From IMG/VR virus record IMGVR_UViG_3300025141_000321, positions 1 to 36,636 of that record: a stretch of DNA of 36,636 bases; one strand, given 5' to 3'. The notes below the pieces were generated by a model. The model did not search any database, was not told where the DNA came from, and saw only the letters and a list, made by a program, of their open reading frames with translations. This DNA comes from a virus. The first letter of the stretch is position 1, and every line of letters begins with the position of its first letter. Both the position numbers and the translations under genes were made by a program. Positions 5,661 to 35,000 of this stretch are shown here, piece after piece.

Positions 5661-6551
5661 ATGGCTCTGACAACCAGCAACGTGAAGCCGATCGCCGTCA
5701 ACGCGCACTTCATCGGCATCGGCGAGGCCGCGCCGCTGAATTCGTGGCAGAAGGTCTTTGATCAGCACACCGACGACGTTGCGAGTCTGCGCATCGCGTC
5801 GATGACCGGCGCGGGCAACGCGAGCACATGGGACGGCACGGCCGACTTCTCGTATGGGTCAATCGACCGCCCCGGACATGACGGTCTGACGCTCGCCTAT
5901 CAGGGCTACGAGCTCGCGGTCGCGATCGGCAAGTACACGAACAAGGATGTGCAGGGATTGGTCGAGAAGACCGCGCGCAAGATGGCGTGGTCCGCGGTCT
6001 CGACGTTCGCGAACGTCGCTTGGACCGAGGCGGCGACCTTCGATTCGGCGACCGTCGCCGACGGCAAGAACCTCTGCGCCAACGACCACACGACCACGTC
6101 GACGACGCGCGACAACCTCATCACCTCCGCCCTCGACCGCGCCGCCTTCATGTCGGCCATCCAGATGTTCCGGGAGTGGGTGAACTACGAGGATCAGGTC
6201 TTCGACATCATCGGCATGGGCTGGGCGCTCGCGCTCCTCGTGCCGCCCGAGCTGGAAGAGGTCGCCTGCCAGATCGTCAAGTCCGTCGCCACCGACGCCG
6301 ACCTCCAGGTCAACGTCGCCGGGATGTACAACGTCGAGGTCATCGTCGTCCCGCATTTCACTGACGCCAACGACTGGTGCCTGGTCGCCAAGAAGGACAA
6401 CTCGCCCTTCAAGTTCTGGACGCGGTCGCCGCTCGACTTCATGGCGCGTGTCGATCAGGACAACAAGCGCATCCTGCTCGCGTCGGACTTCGCCATCGTC
6501 GCCGACTCGGGCCCCGAGCCGGACGGGATCGTCGGCGCGTCCGTGACCTGA
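5661..6551 (+). CDS. Major capsid protein, Mu gpT-like (296 aa)
   Basis: This is the HK97-fold shell subunit. The sequence shows features I associate with the Mu gpT-like group: the DGKNLCANDH segment near residue 135, then the helix with LVPPELEEVACQIVKS near residue 195, and a C-terminal stretch with beta strands (VEVIVVPHF, WCLVAKK, PFKFWTRSPLDFMARVDQD). Length of 296 aa is typical. There is no long N-terminal delta domain, so scaffolding is probably supplied in trans. The gene has its own leader with GAGGATCGAA before the ATG and a promoter-like element, in line with high expression. Confidence 0.85.
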   Translation: MALTTSNVKPIAVNAHFIGIGEAAPLNSWQKVFDQHTDDVASLRIASMTGAGNASTWDGTADFSYGSIDRPGHDGLTLAYQGYELAVAIGKYTNKDVQGLVEKTARKMAWSAVSTFANVAWTEAATFDSATVADGKNLCANDHTTTSTTRDNLITSALDRAAFMSAIQMFREWVNYEDQVFDIIGMGWALALLVPPELEEVACQIVKSVATDADLQVNVAGMYNVEVIVVPHFTDANDWCLVAKKDNSPFKFWTRSPLDFMARVDQDNKRILLASDFAIVADSGPEPDGIVGASVT

Positions 6552-20126: not shown

Positions 20127-20130
20127 ACAG

Positions 20131-20270
20131 GACAGAGCAGGACAGAGCAGGACAGAGCAGGACAGGGCAGGACAGGGCAGGACAGAGCAGTGCAGTGCAG
20201 GACAGAGCAGTGCAGTGCAGGACAGAGCAGTGCAGTGCAGGACAGAGCAGTGCAGGGCAGGACAGAGTAG
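20131..20270. repeat. Fourteen 10-bp tandem repeats
   Basis: The array is fourteen exact-length decamers in the order AAABBACACACADE, where A is GACAGAGCAG, B GACAGGGCAG, C TGCAGTGCAG, D TGCAGGGCAG and E GACAGAGTAG. There are no indels. It lies just after the last late gene and before the promoter of the HNH gene. The 10-bp period puts each unit on the same helix face. Not coding: both strands give only low-complexity frames. Confidence 0.95.
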
Positions 20271-23758: not shown

Positions 23759-25602
23759 GGCTCCGGCCTCCACACGCCGAGCCGGCCCGCTCCATCGCGC
23801 ACCGGCTCGGCATCTGTCGACAATGACATCGTCAGCACAGGCTCCGCAAGGATCGGGATGTCCGGGCACGCCCGCTCTCCCTCCTCGATCATGATCTCGG
23901 CGAGCCTCTCCGCCGCCTCCGGCGCTCGGTCCGAGGGGCACTCGATTCCGATCTCATCGTGTACGAAGATGACAGGGCGGCACGTCCAGAGCGGCGACTC
24001 CGGCTCCGTGAAGCACTCCTTCGTCACCCGGTAGAGCGCCGCCTTCGAGAAATCGGCGACGATCCCCTGGAAGGGCGAATTACACGCCTGCGTGTACCGG
24101 CACCCGCCCCGGACGCGCCCGGAGACAGCCTGTGTGATGCGCGCCGCGCCCCCGCCATACTCGACCGCCTCGGCGACCCGTGCGAAATACTGGCGCATCT
24201 CCGGGAACCGGCGGAGCCAGGCTTGCTTCAGCGTCTGCGCCCTCTCCGGCGGGATCCGCACCTTGTACGAGCTCCACGCCCAATCCGAGAGCGCATCGGC
24301 GCCCATACCGCCGGCGAGCCCGAAATTCGCCACCTTGGCGAGCTGGCGCGCGTCCTTCACTTCCTCGACGCCGTCGGCGTGTAGGCGCATCGCCTCTTCG
24401 TAGTCGACGCCGAGGATCTCTGCGGCGACCTCGAGGTGGAGCTCCCGACCAGCCTGGAACGCCCTCGCCATCGCCGACTCTCCGAATTCCCACAGGAGGA
24501 TCTGAGCCAACGCGCGCAGCTCGGCGATCGAGTAGTCGCAGAGCGCGAAGACGTGCCCCGGGCGCGGGACGAACGCTGCACGCACGCCGCCCTTCTTCGG
24601 GAGATTTTGTAGGTTCGGGCGCGCGCACGAGGTCCGGCCGGTCTCGACGAGCACGCGCCAGCGCGGGTTGATCGGCACGTCCCGCCCTTCCTCGAGCGCA
24701 CAGACGTATGTGGCCAGGAACTTTTCGGCGTGCACGAGCCGGGCGAGCGCCTCAAGGTCTCCGTCCCCTGTGCTCTCGAGCGTCTCTCGGTCGGTGGCAA
24801 CCTGTCCGGTCTTCGTCTTCGGTGCCTCGTCTCCGAGGGCGGCGGCGACCCTGGCCTTGATCGCCGCCATGTTTTTCGAGCCCGTCGGACGGAGCAGACC
24901 TGCCGACGCCAGCGATGCACGGAGCCGGTCGATCTCGGTCTCGTGCTCCTTGCGGAGCGCGGCGACCTTGACCGGATCGGTTCGGAGCCCCCAACATCCC
25001 ATGAGGTGCAGCGCCCACGCCGCGCGCGTCTGCGCTGCTTCGTCCGGGGACGGGTCTCCGCGGTCTTCCTGCGCACCGTAGACGCGGAGCGTATAGACGG
25101 CGTCGAGGCGGGAATACTCGACCGCCTCGGTCGGCCACTCGGTTATTGGGAGCCCGTCGAGCTCGTGGTAGCGCGTGCGCCAGGCGTCCGGACCCTTGCC
25201 GTCGACCTGCTCGCCGAAGTGGCGTTCAACGAGGGCGGCGAGGGAGTACCGCGGCGGACGCCCGGTGTCAGGGTCGAATTTGAACCGGCCGAGGGCGATG
25301 TTGTGGAGCTGCTCGCGGACCTGAACATCGTGGACGCGCCCCTCGTCGTAGGCGGCGAAGATGCGCCGGAGGTAGTGTAGGCGCTCGCGAGGATATGTCG
25401 CCGCGGCGATCACGGCGAAGTCGTAGGAGATGTTGGCCCCGACGAAGCGCTCGTCCGTGTCGAGCCGCCGGAGCATGTAGCCGAGACCCTGTTCGCGTGC
25501 GAGCACGCCGGATTTATCATGATCGGCGTACGAGACGCAGACCATGCGCGGGGCGAGGCGACCGGGAGCAATGCGCCAAGTCTCGGTGTCGATGGCGATC
25601 AT
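23755..25602 (-). CDS. Family A DNA polymerase with 3'-5' exonuclease (615 aa)
   Basis: The replicative polymerase of the phage. ATG 25602 gives MIAIDTET, the Exo I motif (Asp5, Glu7); NISYDF (Asp61) is Exo II, and YSRLD (Tyr163, Asp167) Exo III, so proofreading looks intact. Polymerase parts: TGRTSCARPNLQNLP (321-335), motif A CDYSIAELR (Asp356, Glu361), motif B RQLAKVANFGLAGG (Arg419, Lys423, Phe427), NSPFQG (508-513), motif C VHDE (547-550). In motif B the Tyr of E. coli Pol I (Y766) is Gly431. No 5' nuclease domain. The frame stays open upstream through the pentapeptide array, but that is an artefact of 15-bp repeats. ATGA overlaps at both ends. Confidence 0.93.
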   Translation of the reverse strand: MIAIDTETWRIAPGRLAPRMVCVSYADHDKSGVLAREQGLGYMLRRLDTDERFVGANISYDFAVIAAATYPRERLHYLRRIFAAYDEGRVHDVQVREQLHNIALGRFKFDPDTGRPPRYSLAALVERHFGEQVDGKGPDAWRTRYHELDGLPITEWPTEAVEYSRLDAVYTLRVYGAQEDRGDPSPDEAAQTRAAWALHLMGCWGLRTDPVKVAALRKEHETEIDRLRASLASAGLLRPTGSKNMAAIKARVAAALGDEAPKTKTGQVATDRETLESTGDGDLEALARLVHAEKFLATYVCALEEGRDVPINPRWRVLVETGRTSCARPNLQNLPKKGGVRAAFVPRPGHVFALCDYSIAELRALAQILLWEFGESAMARAFQAGRELHLEVAAEILGVDYEEAMRLHADGVEEVKDARQLAKVANFGLAGGMGADALSDWAWSSYKVRIPPERAQTLKQAWLRRFPEMRQYFARVAEAVEYGGGAARITQAVSGRVRGGCRYTQACNSPFQGIVADFSKAALYRVTKECFTEPESPLWTCRPVIFVHDEIGIECPSDRAPEAAERLAEIMIEEGERACPDIPILAEPVLTMSLSTDAEPVRDGAGRLGVWRPEP

Positions 25603-26261
25603 CGAACAGCCCCGCGCGCGACAAGGTCCGCCCAGTCGCTGCGTCCATACGCGCCGCAAAGGTCCGTGTTGCGGAGGTTCGCGCCGCGGAGGTTCGCGCC
25701 GCGGAGGTTCGCGCCGAAGAGGTTCGCGCCGCAAAGGTCCGTGTTGCAAAGGTCCGTGTTGCAAAGGTCCGCGCCGCGGAGGTTCGCGCCGAAGAGGTCC
25801 GTGTTGCGGAGGTCCGCGCCGCGGAGGTTCGCGCCGCGGAGGTTCACGTCGCGGAGGTTCGCGCCGCTGAGGTTCGCGCCGCGGAGTTTGGGCGAGCACC
25901 TCAGCCAGATCTGAGGGTCAAATTGTCCGGATGTCTGAGGGTCCACCTCCCCCAGCGGGCGGATCCTCCGCCAGCACAACTTGTCGCCGTCGGACTCGAC
26001 AAGCCCCGCGCCCTCGACGAGCCAGACGCGGCAGCCGCGCCACCGAAGAGGGTCGGCGGTCGTGTGCCAGCCCTGCCGACAGATCTGCGGCTTTTCGACG
26101 GCGCGCGACCACCGTCCGATCGGTATGGGATCTGCGCTGCCTCCATTCGCCGGACGACCGTGCTGGTCAGTGACGCGCCACGAGAGGCGTCCTTCACTGA
26201 GCGCGGCTTCTGCGGCGTCGAGGAGGTCGGGGCGGACGATGCCGAAGTGCTGGTCGGGCAT
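25599..26261 (-). CDS. Pentapeptide-repeat protein (220 aa)
   Basis: Residues from about 128 to 205 are fifteen A(D/N)LxG-type pentapeptides (ANLSG, ANLRD, VNLRG, ANLRG, ADLRN, TDLFG ...), predicted to form a short right-handed beta helix of just under four coils. The first 125 residues are a separate domain with WHTTADPLRWRGCRVWLVEGAG and DGDKLCWRRIRPL, a make-up seen in small phage proteins next to pentapeptide repeats (DUF7666-like, from memory). Some pentapeptide proteins bind gyrase as DNA mimics, but this one is Arg-rich and not acidic, so that role is doubtful. GGAGTCCCCGCC precedes the ATG. The stop overlaps the polymerase start. Confidence 0.8.
   Translation of the reverse strand: MPDQHFGIVRPDLLDAAEAALSEGRLSWRVTDQHGRPANGGSADPIPIGRWSRAVEKPQICRQGWHTTADPLRWRGCRVWLVEGAGLVESDGDKLCWRRIRPLGEVDPQTSGQFDPQIWLRCSPKLRGANLSGANLRDVNLRGANLRGADLRNTDLFGANLRGADLCNTDLCNTDLCGANLFGANLRGANLRGANLRNTDLCGAYGRSDWADLVARGAVR
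25655..25886. repeat. Tandem 15-bp repeats coding the pentapeptides
   Basis: On the plus strand the units vary around GCGGAGGTTCGCGCC and GCAAAGGTCCGTGTT, about fifteen in a row. Because the unit is divisible by three, all frames stay open across the array, which creates false long frames on both strands. Two unit types (AN/AD type and TD type) alternate in blocks, pointing to growth by unequal crossing-over. Confidence 0.9.
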
Positions 26262-26287
26262 GGCGGGGACTCCATGGAGAGGGTGAT

Positions 26288-26358
26288 GCGCCCTCCCTCG
26301 TGAGGAGTGGTCGGATCGGGAGCAACGAGGGAGGGCGCGGAGCGCCGCCGGGGCGGCG
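26288..26358. other. Two hairpins between leftward genes
   Basis: First: GCGCCCTCCCTCGT (26288-26301) pairs perfectly with 26325-26338 (14 bp, 23-nt loop). Second: CGCCGCC-GG-GGCGGCG (26343-26358). They fill the 105-nt gap between the stop of the 26367 gene and the start of the pentapeptide gene. No T-run on either strand, so termination, attenuation or RNA processing are all possible. Confidence 0.7.
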
Positions 26359-31370: not shown

Positions 31371-31799
31371 TCAACCTTCCTCCCGGAGCGTGGCGTCGAG
31401 GATCTCCAGCTCGTCCACGATCTCCTCAATGCTCGGGGTCCCCGGGAGGTCTACGATCTTGGCGATCTTGTCGAGCTCCGCGCGCAGACGCTTCATGCCC
31501 TCGCGCCACGAATCGCCCGTGCGGTCGATGCATTCCTCGAGCTGCTCCATCATGTCGTTTTCGGCCGCATCTGTCGCCTCGACGATCCGCTGCTGCACGC
31601 TCTCCTCCGGCTCGGCTGCGAGCACGAGCGATTCGAGGTCGCGCAGCTCGCCGCACACCTCATACACGACATCGTCGATGCACTCCTCGTCGCCGAGGAC
31701 GGTGCGTAGGTAGATCTCGATCGCATCGGACGGGAGGCGGTTGTCACGGCGCGATACCAGTTGATCGGTCGCAGATCCGTCGGACGAATAGCAGGCCAT
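31371..31799 (-). CDS. Acidic helical protein, first gene of the leftward operon (142 aa)
   Basis: ATG 31799 is chosen for the GGAGTCCCCCCC leader with GGAGT 7 nt upstream. The protein is strongly acidic and helical (ECIDDVVYEVCGELRDLESLVLAAEPEE; DMMEQLEECIDRTGDSW; IEEIVDELEILDATLREEG). No motif recognised. As the first gene after the divergent promoter it is probably expressed early; such acidic first genes are often host-takeover or inhibitor proteins, but that is only a guess. Confidence 0.6.
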   Translation of the reverse strand: MACYSSDGSATDQLVSRRDNRLPSDAIEIYLRTVLGDEECIDDVVYEVCGELRDLESLVLAAEPEESVQQRIVEATDAAENDMMEQLEECIDRTGDSWREGMKRLRAELDKIAKIVDLPGTPSIEEIVDELEILDATLREEG

Positions 31800-31830
31800 G
31801 GGGGGGACTCCATGTCTGGGGACTGAGGTC

Positions 31831-31895
31831 ATCGTTGATCGGCTCGCGGGGCTTGTCAAGCGATTGTTGACACGACATTTCGACGGGTCTACCCT
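31831..31895. promoter_or_regulatory. Divergent promoter pair with back-to-back -35 boxes
   Basis: Rightward: TTGACA (31867-31872), 17 nt, TACCCT (31890-31895), leading to the primase-helicase. Leftward (minus strand): TTGACA (31859-31854), 17 nt, AACGAT (31836-31831), leading to the 31799 operon. The two consensus -35 boxes form an inverted repeat TGTCAA-N7-TTGACA, so one bound regulator or polymerase could affect both directions. Confidence 0.6.
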
Positions 31896-31917
31896 CCGGA
31901 CAAATCGGAGTTCCTTA

Positions 31918-34164
31918 ATGCCACGGTGCCTAGTCCTGCCGGACCGCTACGTCGCCGGGTGGAGCACGCTCCATCCGGCTGTAGATCTCGAGGAGATGCT
32001 CACCACCGAGCACGCCACGGATGCGCACTTCGCGTGCTACTACGTCCCGGGCGAAGACCAGATCCCGCGCCTCGTCAAAGGATCACGCGCGCGCGTGCGC
32101 GAGATGGGGGGCGACATCGTCTGCGATGTCCTGGCTGTCGACGTAGACGCCCCCAAGGACGCCGACATGCAGCCGTGGCGAGACCAACAAGCAGAGCTCG
32201 TCGAAGAACACGCCTGGATCGACGATGCCGCAACCTATGACACCCTCGGAGGGTATCGGCTGGTCTGGACCATCGATCCGCTTGCACCTGCCGCGTTCGA
32301 ACGCCGGGTGGTGGGCGTCATCGCCGAGCTGCGCCGGCTCGGCATACCCGCCGATGAGGCGTGCTCCGACTGGACGCGCCTTTACAGGTGCCCGGGGGCT
32401 CCCCGCTATCGGGGGTTCTCGGCGCGTCCCGGGGCGCGTATGCTGCGGTTCTCACCACCTCCGATCCCCCCGAAGGGCGACGCTCCGGCGTCGCTCTTCG
32501 GCGATCTCGGCGAGACGCGCACGCCCTTTGTCCTCCCGGAGACGGTCGAAGAAGGCGACGACGGTCCCGGGCGCAACGTCACGCTGCTCCGGCTCGCCGG
32601 GAAGCTCCGCGCCGCGGGGATGGGCGCCGATGCCGTCCTCGCCGCCGTCCGCGCCGAGAACGATCGGATCTGCCGGCCGCCGCTTGTCGATGCAGAGCTC
32701 CTGCACCTCGTCGGGTACGTCGCCGAGAAGCCCGTAGGCGTCGACCTCCGCGCCGCGGTCGAGGCCCACGACGCCGGCGAACCGACAACGGACGCCGGTC
32801 CGCGCATCCTGCACGACTCTGAGGTCCGGCTCTGCTCTATCGTCCTCGAGGACATGGAGGGCGACGGAGAACCCCTCGCCTTCGACGCCGGGCGGATGTG
32901 GCGGTACAGCCCCGCGGGCGTCTGGGAGTCTGTGCCGGACCATCTCGGCCACCGGGCGGTGATGGGGCTCGATGAAGAGCCCGTGCTTGGCGCCATGCGT
33001 GCCGACGGCTCTCGGAAGATCGTCCCGCTCAAGGTCTCCCATCGGATGTGTGATGCGGTGTGGAGGCTGGCGCGGTCCCGGCGCGCTCGGCCGGGGTTCT
33101 TCGACGGTGGACAGCGGGGCGTGGCGTTCTGCAACGGTTTTCTCAGCTGGTCCGGGGAGCTCGTGGAGCACAGCCCCGAACACCGGGTGCGCCACCGGCT
33201 CGCCTTCGACTATGTGAAGGGAGCGAGCGCCCCTCGGTTCGTCTCCGCCCTCGAGCAGTGGTTGTCGCCGCTCGGTGACGACGCCGGGGCTGTTGGAGAG
33301 CTCCTCGCCGAGTTCGCCGGCGCGTGCCTCTTCGGCGCCGCGACGGACTACCAGCGCGCCCTCGTGCTCTATGGTTTGCTTGCGAGCAACGGCAAGTCGC
33401 AGTTCGTCGAGATCGTCTCCGCCCTCTTCCCCGCGGGGATGATCGCTGCTGTGCCCCCTCAGCGCATGGACGATCAACCCGCGCGGGCCAAACTCGCAGG
33501 CGTCCGGATCAACGTCGTGAGCGAGCTGCCCGAGGCGGAGATCCTGCGATCCGAGGGGTTCAAGGCGTTCGTCGGCGGCGACCGTGTGGAGGCCCGGCAG
33601 GTGTACAGAGAAGGGTTTGACTATCGGCCTATCGCCGGGCACCTCTTCGCCGCCAACCGCCTCCCTCTAGTCCGGGACACAACCGAGGGCTTCTGGCGTC
33701 GGTGGCTGGTCGTGCCCTTCCGTCGGCGCTTCACCACTGCGTCGCCGGGCTTCGAGCCCGACCTCGCTCGGCGGGTCATCGACGAGGAGCTCCAAGGCGT
33801 CGCCGCGTGGGCCGTTGCCGGTGCCCGCCGACTGCGACGACGGGGAGGATATGCGCCTCCAGGCGCCTGCGTGCAGGCTCTCGAGGACTGGCGCCACTCC
33901 GCAGATCGCGTCGCAGCGTTCGTGCTGGAGTGCTGCGAGGATGTCTCCGATCGTGAGGATTGGTCATCATCCGCTGTCCTGCACCGCGCTTTCGACACAT
34001 GGGCGTTCGAAAACGGGGGCAAGAAAATCTCTCAGCGGCTTTTCGGGCTCAGAATTCAAGAACTCGGGTTCACGGAGGAGCTGGAAAAACGAGAACGGCG
34101 GCGAGGAGGTGTTTTTTTCCCTCTGCGCCGAAAAGGGCTCGCGAAAAATCTACCGGAACACTAA
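31918..34164 (+). CDS. D5-like primase-helicase (748 aa)
   Basis: The protein likely primes and unwinds DNA at the origin. Residues about 60-165 are an archaeo-eukaryotic type primase domain: VLAVDVDAP (Asp75, Asp77), GGYRLVWTI, SDWTRLYRCPGAPR. A helical linker (PriCT-like, near AGKLRAAGMGADAVLAAVRAEN) follows, then an SF3 helicase: Walker A GLLASNGKS (486-494), RINVVSELPEAE (Walker B region), GHLFAANRLPLV (motif C with Asn) and FWRRW (592-596, Arg finger). The C-terminus has a winged-helix-like end. ATG 31918 has GGAG 7 nt upstream; the frame is open to 31798 but that part holds the promoter. The iteron array starts 3 bp after the stop. Confidence 0.88.
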   Translation: MPRCLVLPDRYVAGWSTLHPAVDLEEMLTTEHATDAHFACYYVPGEDQIPRLVKGSRARVREMGGDIVCDVLAVDVDAPKDADMQPWRDQQAELVEEHAWIDDAATYDTLGGYRLVWTIDPLAPAAFERRVVGVIAELRRLGIPADEACSDWTRLYRCPGAPRYRGFSARPGARMLRFSPPPIPPKGDAPASLFGDLGETRTPFVLPETVEEGDDGPGRNVTLLRLAGKLRAAGMGADAVLAAVRAENDRICRPPLVDAELLHLVGYVAEKPVGVDLRAAVEAHDAGEPTTDAGPRILHDSEVRLCSIVLEDMEGDGEPLAFDAGRMWRYSPAGVWESVPDHLGHRAVMGLDEEPVLGAMRADGSRKIVPLKVSHRMCDAVWRLARSRRARPGFFDGGQRGVAFCNGFLSWSGELVEHSPEHRVRHRLAFDYVKGASAPRFVSALEQWLSPLGDDAGAVGELLAEFAGACLFGAATDYQRALVLYGLLASNGKSQFVEIVSALFPAGMIAAVPPQRMDDQPARAKLAGVRINVVSELPEAEILRSEGFKAFVGGDRVEARQVYREGFDYRPIAGHLFAANRLPLVRDTTEGFWRRWLVVPFRRRFTTASPGFEPDLARRVIDEELQGVAAWAVAGARRLRRRGGYAPPGACVQALEDWRHSADRVAAFVLECCEDVSDREDWSSSAVLHRAFDTWAFENGGKKISQRLFGLRIQELGFTEELEKRERRRGGVFFPLRRKGLAKNLPEH

Positions 34165-34166
34165 GC

Positions 34167-34430
34167 CCTAGTGTGTAGCTTAGGTGTAGCTTAGGTGTAG
34201 CTTAGATGCAGCAATTCCCCAATGATATCGTAGAGATGTAGCTTGTGTAGCTTATATGAACTTCCCCCACACGGAAATTGGGTAAACACATGTTCACGAC
34301 TGTACATATGAAAGGGCAAACCCTTAAAGAGAGGGAGAGGTCTAAGCTGCACAAGCTACACGCCAGCGGAATCATTGGGGAATTGCTGCATCTAAGCTAC
34401 ACCTAAGCTACACACTAGCTACACACTAGG
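34167..34430. repeat. Palindromic iteron array, putative replication origin
   Basis: Outer arms 34167-34226 and 34371-34430 are inverted repeats matching at 57 of 60 positions. Inner arms 34237-34254 and 34343-34360 match at 17 of 18. The arms are built from a nonamer TGTAGCTTA: left copies start at 34174, 34185, 34196 (11-bp steps), 34237, 34246; right, inverted copies at 34343, 34352, 34393, 34404, 34415 (again 11-bp steps in the outer three). The centre (34255-34342) is AT-rich and has AAGGG-CAAA-CCCTT (34312-34325). The array lies straight after the primase-helicase gene, in a genome otherwise GC-rich. Origin is the likeliest role; a regulatory region for the VRR-NUC operon is the alternative. 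The segment has no gene. Confidence 0.75.
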
Positions 34431-34445
34431 ACACGAGGTGCCGAT

Positions 34446-35000
34446 ATGGGGCCCAGATCGAAGCTACAAGCGAGTCAGAAAAAATCGAAAGGGCAAAAAA
34501 CCGTGCCTTCGGAAAAATCAGAGCATCGAGCGCTCGCGAGAATTCTGCGACGAGCGGGAATTTGCTTCACGCACGTCCCGAATGGTGGACTGCGTGGTGG
34601 GGCGCGGATGGGCGCGGCTGATGGGGTCTTCGCCGGCTTTCCGGACTTCCTGATTTTCGACGCGCCGGCTGCACATAGAGGGTTTGCCATCGAGCTCAAG
34701 CGTCAGGGTGCGCCGCCGTCTGCGGTACGCCCCGAGCAGCAGGCGTGGCTTGATCGCCTGGATGGACGAGGGTGGTCGTGTTTCGTGGCGCGGGGCGCAG
34801 AGGACGCCTATCGGTGGCTCGCCACAAGAGACATCGAGATCGGACGAGGCGATCCGATGACATGGCACGAGTGGCAGCGGGCGGGGGCGAGGGTCGTGAT
34901 CTCTGTGTCGCGCACTTGCCCGTGGTGCGGTGTGGAATCATGGAGGCGCGTACTCGTCGTACACGGTTGCTCCGACTGCAAGCGGACGTGGGCACCATGA
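34446..35000 (+). CDS. VRR-NUC nuclease with zinc ribbon (184 aa)
   Basis: The core has the PD-(D/E)XK VRR-NUC pattern: EHRALARILRRAGICFTHVPNGG (Glu26, PNGG 45-48), then GFPDFLIF (Asp67), AIELKR (Glu83, Lys85) and PEQQAWLDRL (Gln98/99). Such nucleases act on branched DNA or flaps in phage recombination and replication. Beyond the domain a CPWC...CSDC zinc-ribbon-like tail (residues about 158-180) is added. The ATG at 34446 follows GAGGTGCCGAT directly downstream of the iteron array. ATGA overlap with the next gene. Confidence 0.87.
   Translation: MGPRSKLQASQKKSKGQKTVPSEKSEHRALARILRRAGICFTHVPNGGLRGGARMGAADGVFAGFPDFLIFDAPAAHRGFAIELKRQGAPPSAVRPEQQAWLDRLDGRGWSCFVARGAEDAYRWLATRDIEIGRGDPMTWHEWQRAGARVVISVSRTCPWCGVESWRRVLVVHGCSDCKRTWAP

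Follow-up and report, generated by a model that had tools for sequence, protein, structure and literature searches.

A near-perfectly symmetric palindrome of iterons directly behind a D5-type primase-helicase gene, a putative replication origin of a tailed phage

The replication origins of the PICIs lie behind rep and always include an AT-rich region with an iteron set on either side (PMC6092414), and in the SaPIs the repeats stand in opposite orientations and load two head-to-head hexamers (PMC9894130). In the case of the D5-family helicase Cch2, it is the C-terminal domain that binds iterons behind the helicase's own gene, and at this origin the iterons are essential but the inverted repeats dispensable (PMC7581432). 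In addition, the origin of pRN1 includes a required stem-loop within the 166 bp behind the gene for a related primase-SF3 helicase, ORF904, and the alpha primase of P4 is known to be of the Toprim type (PMC4234260). The locus that we describe here is very probably of a kind already known from P4, the SaPIs and the Streptococcus thermophilus phage Sfi21, and what is new about it is an unusually near-perfect symmetry.

The DNA that we analysed, called the window throughout, is the whole 36,636-bp virus record IMGVR_UViG_3300025141_000321, which is classed as linear and has 66% GC. Genes of its own for a large terminase, a portal, a major head protein and a tape-measure-like protein make it a tailed phage, whereas PICIs are satellites without a full capsid and packaging set of their own. 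No relative of the window at the DNA level was found in the phage collection. Relatives of its primase are, however, present in the genomes of Polyangium and other Myxococcota (L090, L091, L092, L093, L094 and L096), which hints at, rather than proves, a myxobacterial host; some of these D5 relatives also have inverted iterons behind the gene, as in L094, with nine copies of TGACAGACT. The features that matter to the argument are these:

31798 to 34164, plus strand: D5-type primase-helicase of 788 aa, the presumed initiator, with PriCT-1, DUF5906/SF3 helicase and a C-terminal RFX-like winged helix
34167 to 34430, no strand: imperfect 264-bp palindrome, the putative replication origin, beginning 3 bp past the stop of the primase-helicase gene
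34174 to 34204, plus strand: left outer iterons, three exact copies of TGTAGCTTA with 11-bp phasing
34207 to 34215, plus strand: probable degenerate fourth iteron, TGCAGCAAT, which keeps the 11-bp register; the mirror position is identical
34211 to 34226, plus strand: left copy of a 16-bp non-iteron element, GCAATTCCCCAATGAT
34237 to 34254, plus strand: left inner iteron pair with 9-bp spacing
34255 to 34342, no strand: centre separating the two arms, with 45% GC, a candidate for the site of unwinding
34343 to 34360, minus strand: right inner iteron pair with 9-bp spacing
34371 to 34386, minus strand: right copy of the 16-bp non-iteron element, identical to the left one
34393 to 34423, minus strand: right outer iterons with 11-bp phasing, the outermost (34415) being degenerate, TGTAGCTAG, with two mismatches
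34446 to 35000, plus strand: VRR-NUC nuclease gene (Pfam VRR_NUC, 3.5e-6), a neighbour kept in the nearest relatives
34460 to 34468, minus strand: an extra iteron copy, TGTAGCTTC, within the start of the VRR-NUC gene

When we recounted the positions and realigned the arms, the anatomy given by an earlier sequence-only reading was confirmed in each number checked: ten nonamers of the TGTAGCTTA type, five in each orientation, within a near-perfect palindrome of 264 bp whose halves match the reverse complement of one another at 57 of 60 outer and 17 of 18 inner positions. The iterons start at 34174, 34185, 34196, 34237 and 34246 on the plus strand and at 34343, 34352, 34393, 34404 and 34415 on the minus strand, so that the outer triplets are indeed phased at 11 bp, as had been claimed, and the inner pairs at 9 bp. 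Six of the ten are exact, three have one mismatch and one has two. Allowing at most one mismatch, the 36.6-kb window holds ten matches to TGTAGCTTA where 0.76 are expected; nine of these are inside the palindrome, the tenth is the copy at 34460-34468, and there are none in the window outside 34174-34468. The iterons form five mirror pairs, a number reached by none of 20,000 random placements (maximum four). The degenerate fourth copy in each arm and the 16-bp element had escaped the sequence-only reading. The roughly 10 bp beyond the 16-bp element are unlike between the two arms, although the element itself is identical, and since complete divergence lies right next to complete identity, either the element is functional or it is part of an outer arm that was recently copied. 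An assembly foldback artefact was considered and rejected because the arms differ at three of 60 and one of 18 positions, are interrupted by this unrelated stretch of about 10 bp and enclose a unique centre. As a separate observation, a P4-like iteron, CGTGAACATG, is found on the minus strand at 34288-34297, near the exact centre of the palindrome.

The two iteron sets flank a region of low stability. By nearest-neighbour energies, the stability minimum of the window falls in the palindrome block at the 50-, 100-, 200- and 280-bp scales, with the 50- and 100-bp minima beginning at 34213 and covering the left inner arm. The centre had been described as AT-rich, which is true relative to the 66% GC genome but not relative to the arms, at 45% GC in the centre against 43% and 49% in the arms. 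No switch in GC skew is visible at 34.3 kb, but the site is only 2.2 kb from the end of the contig, so that this test has no power. Rfam and tRNA scans of the DNA were empty, and an RNA element is thus not indicated.

The gene immediately upstream encodes a D5/SF3 helicase that is a homologue of SaPI5 Rep. The protein matches the PHROG DNA primase family (6.9e-60) and Pfam PriCT_1 and DUF5906, its family profile finds the SaPI5 primase-helicase 7ola at E = 5.8e-63, and the same structure is the best fold match of the full-length AlphaFold model (Foldseek, 9.2e-21). The C-terminal domain, modelled at pLDDT 87, is predicted to be a winged helix of the kind that binds double-stranded DNA: its profile finds RFX5 at 1e-4 and, more weakly, the origin-binding domain of P4 alpha (1ka8) at 0.07. 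For the model of this domain the best Foldseek match is the RFX DNA-binding domain, with a probability of 0.98, but at E = 0.06 this fold match is only suggestive.

How, then, does the window compare with the described systems? The PICIs and SaPIs (SaPI5 Rep, SaPIbov1, EcCICFT073) likewise have the origin immediately 3' of the gene for a homologous D5-type protein, rep or primase-helicase. They differ from the window in iteron sequence, the SaPIs being compared here by their published description, and the window differs from them in its near-perfect palindromic arms and the non-iteron element that these share. In P4, crr follows the alpha gene directly and contains type-1 iterons of both orientations at 9-bp spacing, and alpha, like the window's protein, ends in a winged helix, which in alpha binds the origin. 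Unlike the window, however, P4 has a Toprim-type primase and needs two separate sites, ori and crr; no second site of the TGTAGCTTA type was found elsewhere in the 36.6-kb window, a contig that is possibly incomplete. The iterons also differ (ACTGTTCACC in P4, TAAGCTACACC in the window), and the polarity of the iteron sets around the AT-rich part is reversed. Sfi21 comes close in layout, with an annotated 302-bp ori (the phage inhibitory element) directly behind a D5-type putative primase, mirror iteron pairs (CTTTAGTTACTTAGTTAC and GTAACTAAGTAACTAAAG) around an AT-rich middle, 55-nt arms that are 75% complementary and a VRR-NUC-like gene further downstream, although it has fewer iterons, lower symmetry and a very AT-rich centre. 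We also considered PLE as a model and dropped it, because its RepA_N initiator belongs to a different initiator family. The arrays of P4, Sfi21 and the PICIs thus occupy the same position and have inverted iterons, so that the claim that mirror-image sets are unlike known origins fails, inverted sets being the rule in this class (our survey of D5 genes below; PMC6092414; PMC9894130), and the reading of the array as an origin is strengthened by the same facts.

To place the window among its relatives, we used an alignment search of IMG/VR, which gave 79 related loci and, with other fetched loci, 72 non-redundant D5 genes; Dismas (L089) was left out of the survey, its primase running straight into DNA polymerase I with no gap. 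For each locus, repeated 8-mers were scored over 350 bp 3' of the D5 gene and over the same length 3' of its other long ORFs. The D5 gene end was the most repeat-rich in 30 of 66 loci, against 10.5 expected (binomial p = 1.4e-8), and the score exceeded z = 5 in 26 of 71. No array follows the gene in about half of the D5 relatives, chiefly marine helicases of ~500 aa; only part of the family has this trait. In motif finding, nearly every array that was examined combined both orientations with spacings of 8-12 bp. The window is the most symmetric, with its five mirror pairs, followed by L014 with four and L071 and L072 with three, while L073 and L012 have arms of 43-44 nt that are 86% complementary and include non-iteron DNA. 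Behind the D5 genes of L071 (4769-5024) and L072 (7146-7473) we also noted multi-block putative origins of 12-16 iterons in blocks of alternating orientation, layouts more complex than those of P4 or the SaPIs. In an independent test, iterons hand-picked from the motif finding were scored with a matrix built on the sixteen annotated P4 type-1 iterons, and those of 31 loci resembled the P4 iterons more than the surrounding DNA did (p = 3e-4). L004 and L009 scored highest, whereas the window reached only the 83rd percentile.

In gene order, L009, L003 and L004 come nearest to the window: their primases are 34-40% identical to its own, and they share with it the order D5 gene, gap of ~300 bp, VRR-NUC gene. 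The window has eight GTGTA sites; in the gaps of these relatives there are six GGTGTA sites in L009, four in L003 and, counting both strands, 17 GTGCA matches in L004, all above shuffles, with p-values that are descriptive only since the GTG(T/C)A / GTGNA core was picked after inspecting the sequences. The generic 8-mer repeat score is negative for L003 and weak for L009. The exact tandem (double) iteron of the window has no other copy in IMG/VR, so that what is conserved in cis is position and core only. A search of the L009, L003 and L004 records for the window's terminase, run without a positive control, gave no counterpart, and this would fit an exchange of the replication module between otherwise different phages. 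The gap of L004 holds, at 5703-5754 and between GTGCAC iteron sets of opposite polarity, a central hairpin (CGCATGACGCGCGG...TATATATA...CGCGTGCGTCATGCG) with alternating purine-pyrimidine DNA.

On these sequence comparisons, the block at 34167-34430 is very probably an origin that is read by the adjacent D5 primase-helicase, much as the sequence-only reading, which also allowed for an unknown initiator, had proposed; such arrays recur beside the D5 genes of other phages as well as in P4, Sfi21 and the PICIs, and the protein is homologous to SaPI5 Rep and has an RFX-like winged helix at its C-terminus. The main rival is an origin of the pRN1 type, in which the initiator would recognise the folded palindrome, extruded or single-stranded, with the iterons incidental to the arms. 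Indeed, pRN1 too has its stem-loop origin behind a primase-SF3 helicase with a C-terminal winged helix, and requires it. Folded as single-stranded DNA, the palindrome reaches -93 kcal/mol (z = -19.6). Regions behind D5 genes fold more strongly than the ends of other genes (z < -5 in 10 of 71 against 0 of 121, p = 4e-6), and among them the window is the extreme case, at z about -20. Stems that include non-iteron DNA occur in L073, L012 and L004, just as the 16-bp element is mirrored in the window. But inverted iterons alone yield such folding, and pRN1 has no iterons, whereas in place of a continuous iteron-free stem-loop of ~100 nt the window has arms dominated by iterons, with complementarity lost over about 10 bp and over the central 88 nt. 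These gaps disfavour cruciform extrusion and, together with the dispensable inverted repeats of Cch2, make a pRN1-like stem-loop unlikely.

The idea that the array is an operator or incompatibility-type element, through which a repressor or the primase itself would control the flanking genes while replication starts elsewhere, draws on the 11-bp phased sites, which suit cooperative binding, and on a further tandem array at 20128-20267. However, the flanking genes all run in one direction, no convincing promoter was found, the conserved property is the position behind D5 genes, and the arrays that P4 and Sfi21 have at this position are known to act in cis in replication, so that we hold this reading to be very unlikely. 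Least probable is the suggestion, also made from the sequence, that the palindrome folds into a cruciform on which the neighbouring VRR-NUC nuclease acts. The nuclease gene does follow the array in the nearest relatives, but the centre is large and non-complementary, no more than 14 of the 68 testable loci have a VRR-NUC gene within 4 kb, and the majority of arrays lack one.

We consider it highly likely that the array is a phage replication origin of the D5/SaPI-Rep/P4-alpha type that works through two opposed hexamers. What we observe is the arrangement, its recurrence behind D5 genes, and a protein that is homologous to known initiators, as is its DNA-binding domain; from the homologues we infer binding, a double hexamer, opening and priming. 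The primase-helicase would bind the GGTGTAGCTTA-type iterons via its C-terminal winged helix, the two mirror-image sets would seat a pair of oppositely oriented helicase hexamers on the duplex, these would jointly open the low-stability middle, and the primase part would then start bidirectional synthesis with a host or phage polymerase. A more specific version, in which each arm provides the sites of exactly one hexamer (six, counting the degenerate fourth, with four at 11 bp and two at 9 bp), the mirrored 16-bp element is bound by another factor and the palindrome serves as the geometric template on which a symmetric D5 double hexamer forms, is doubtful. The origin interpretation would place a phage origin precisely, together with its likely initiator, and the near-perfect symmetry would make it a convenient natural substrate for studying how a pair of initiator-helicase hexamers comes to be positioned on double-stranded DNA, a question still open for SF3 helicases, SV40 T-antigen and poxvirus D5 among them.

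Some further observations concern other parts of the window. At its C-terminus the VRR-NUC protein carries an additional CPWC...CSDC segment (34880-35000), which is zinc-ribbon-like and absent from the relatives L003, L004 and L005. The array at 20128-20267 is one-sided and tandem, with a 10/20-bp unit (CAGGACAGAG / CAGTGCAGGACAGAGCAGTG), and lies in the gap that separates a small ORF resembling a membrane protein from an HNH endonuclease gene. It is a possible second cis element; the cumulative GC skew has a peak near 20 kb and a dip at 20-22 kb. Finally, a 15-bp tandem repeat at 25671-25886 lies within the ORF at 25395-26303; the match of the encoded protein to a decapeptide-repeat family falls short of the curated cut-off.
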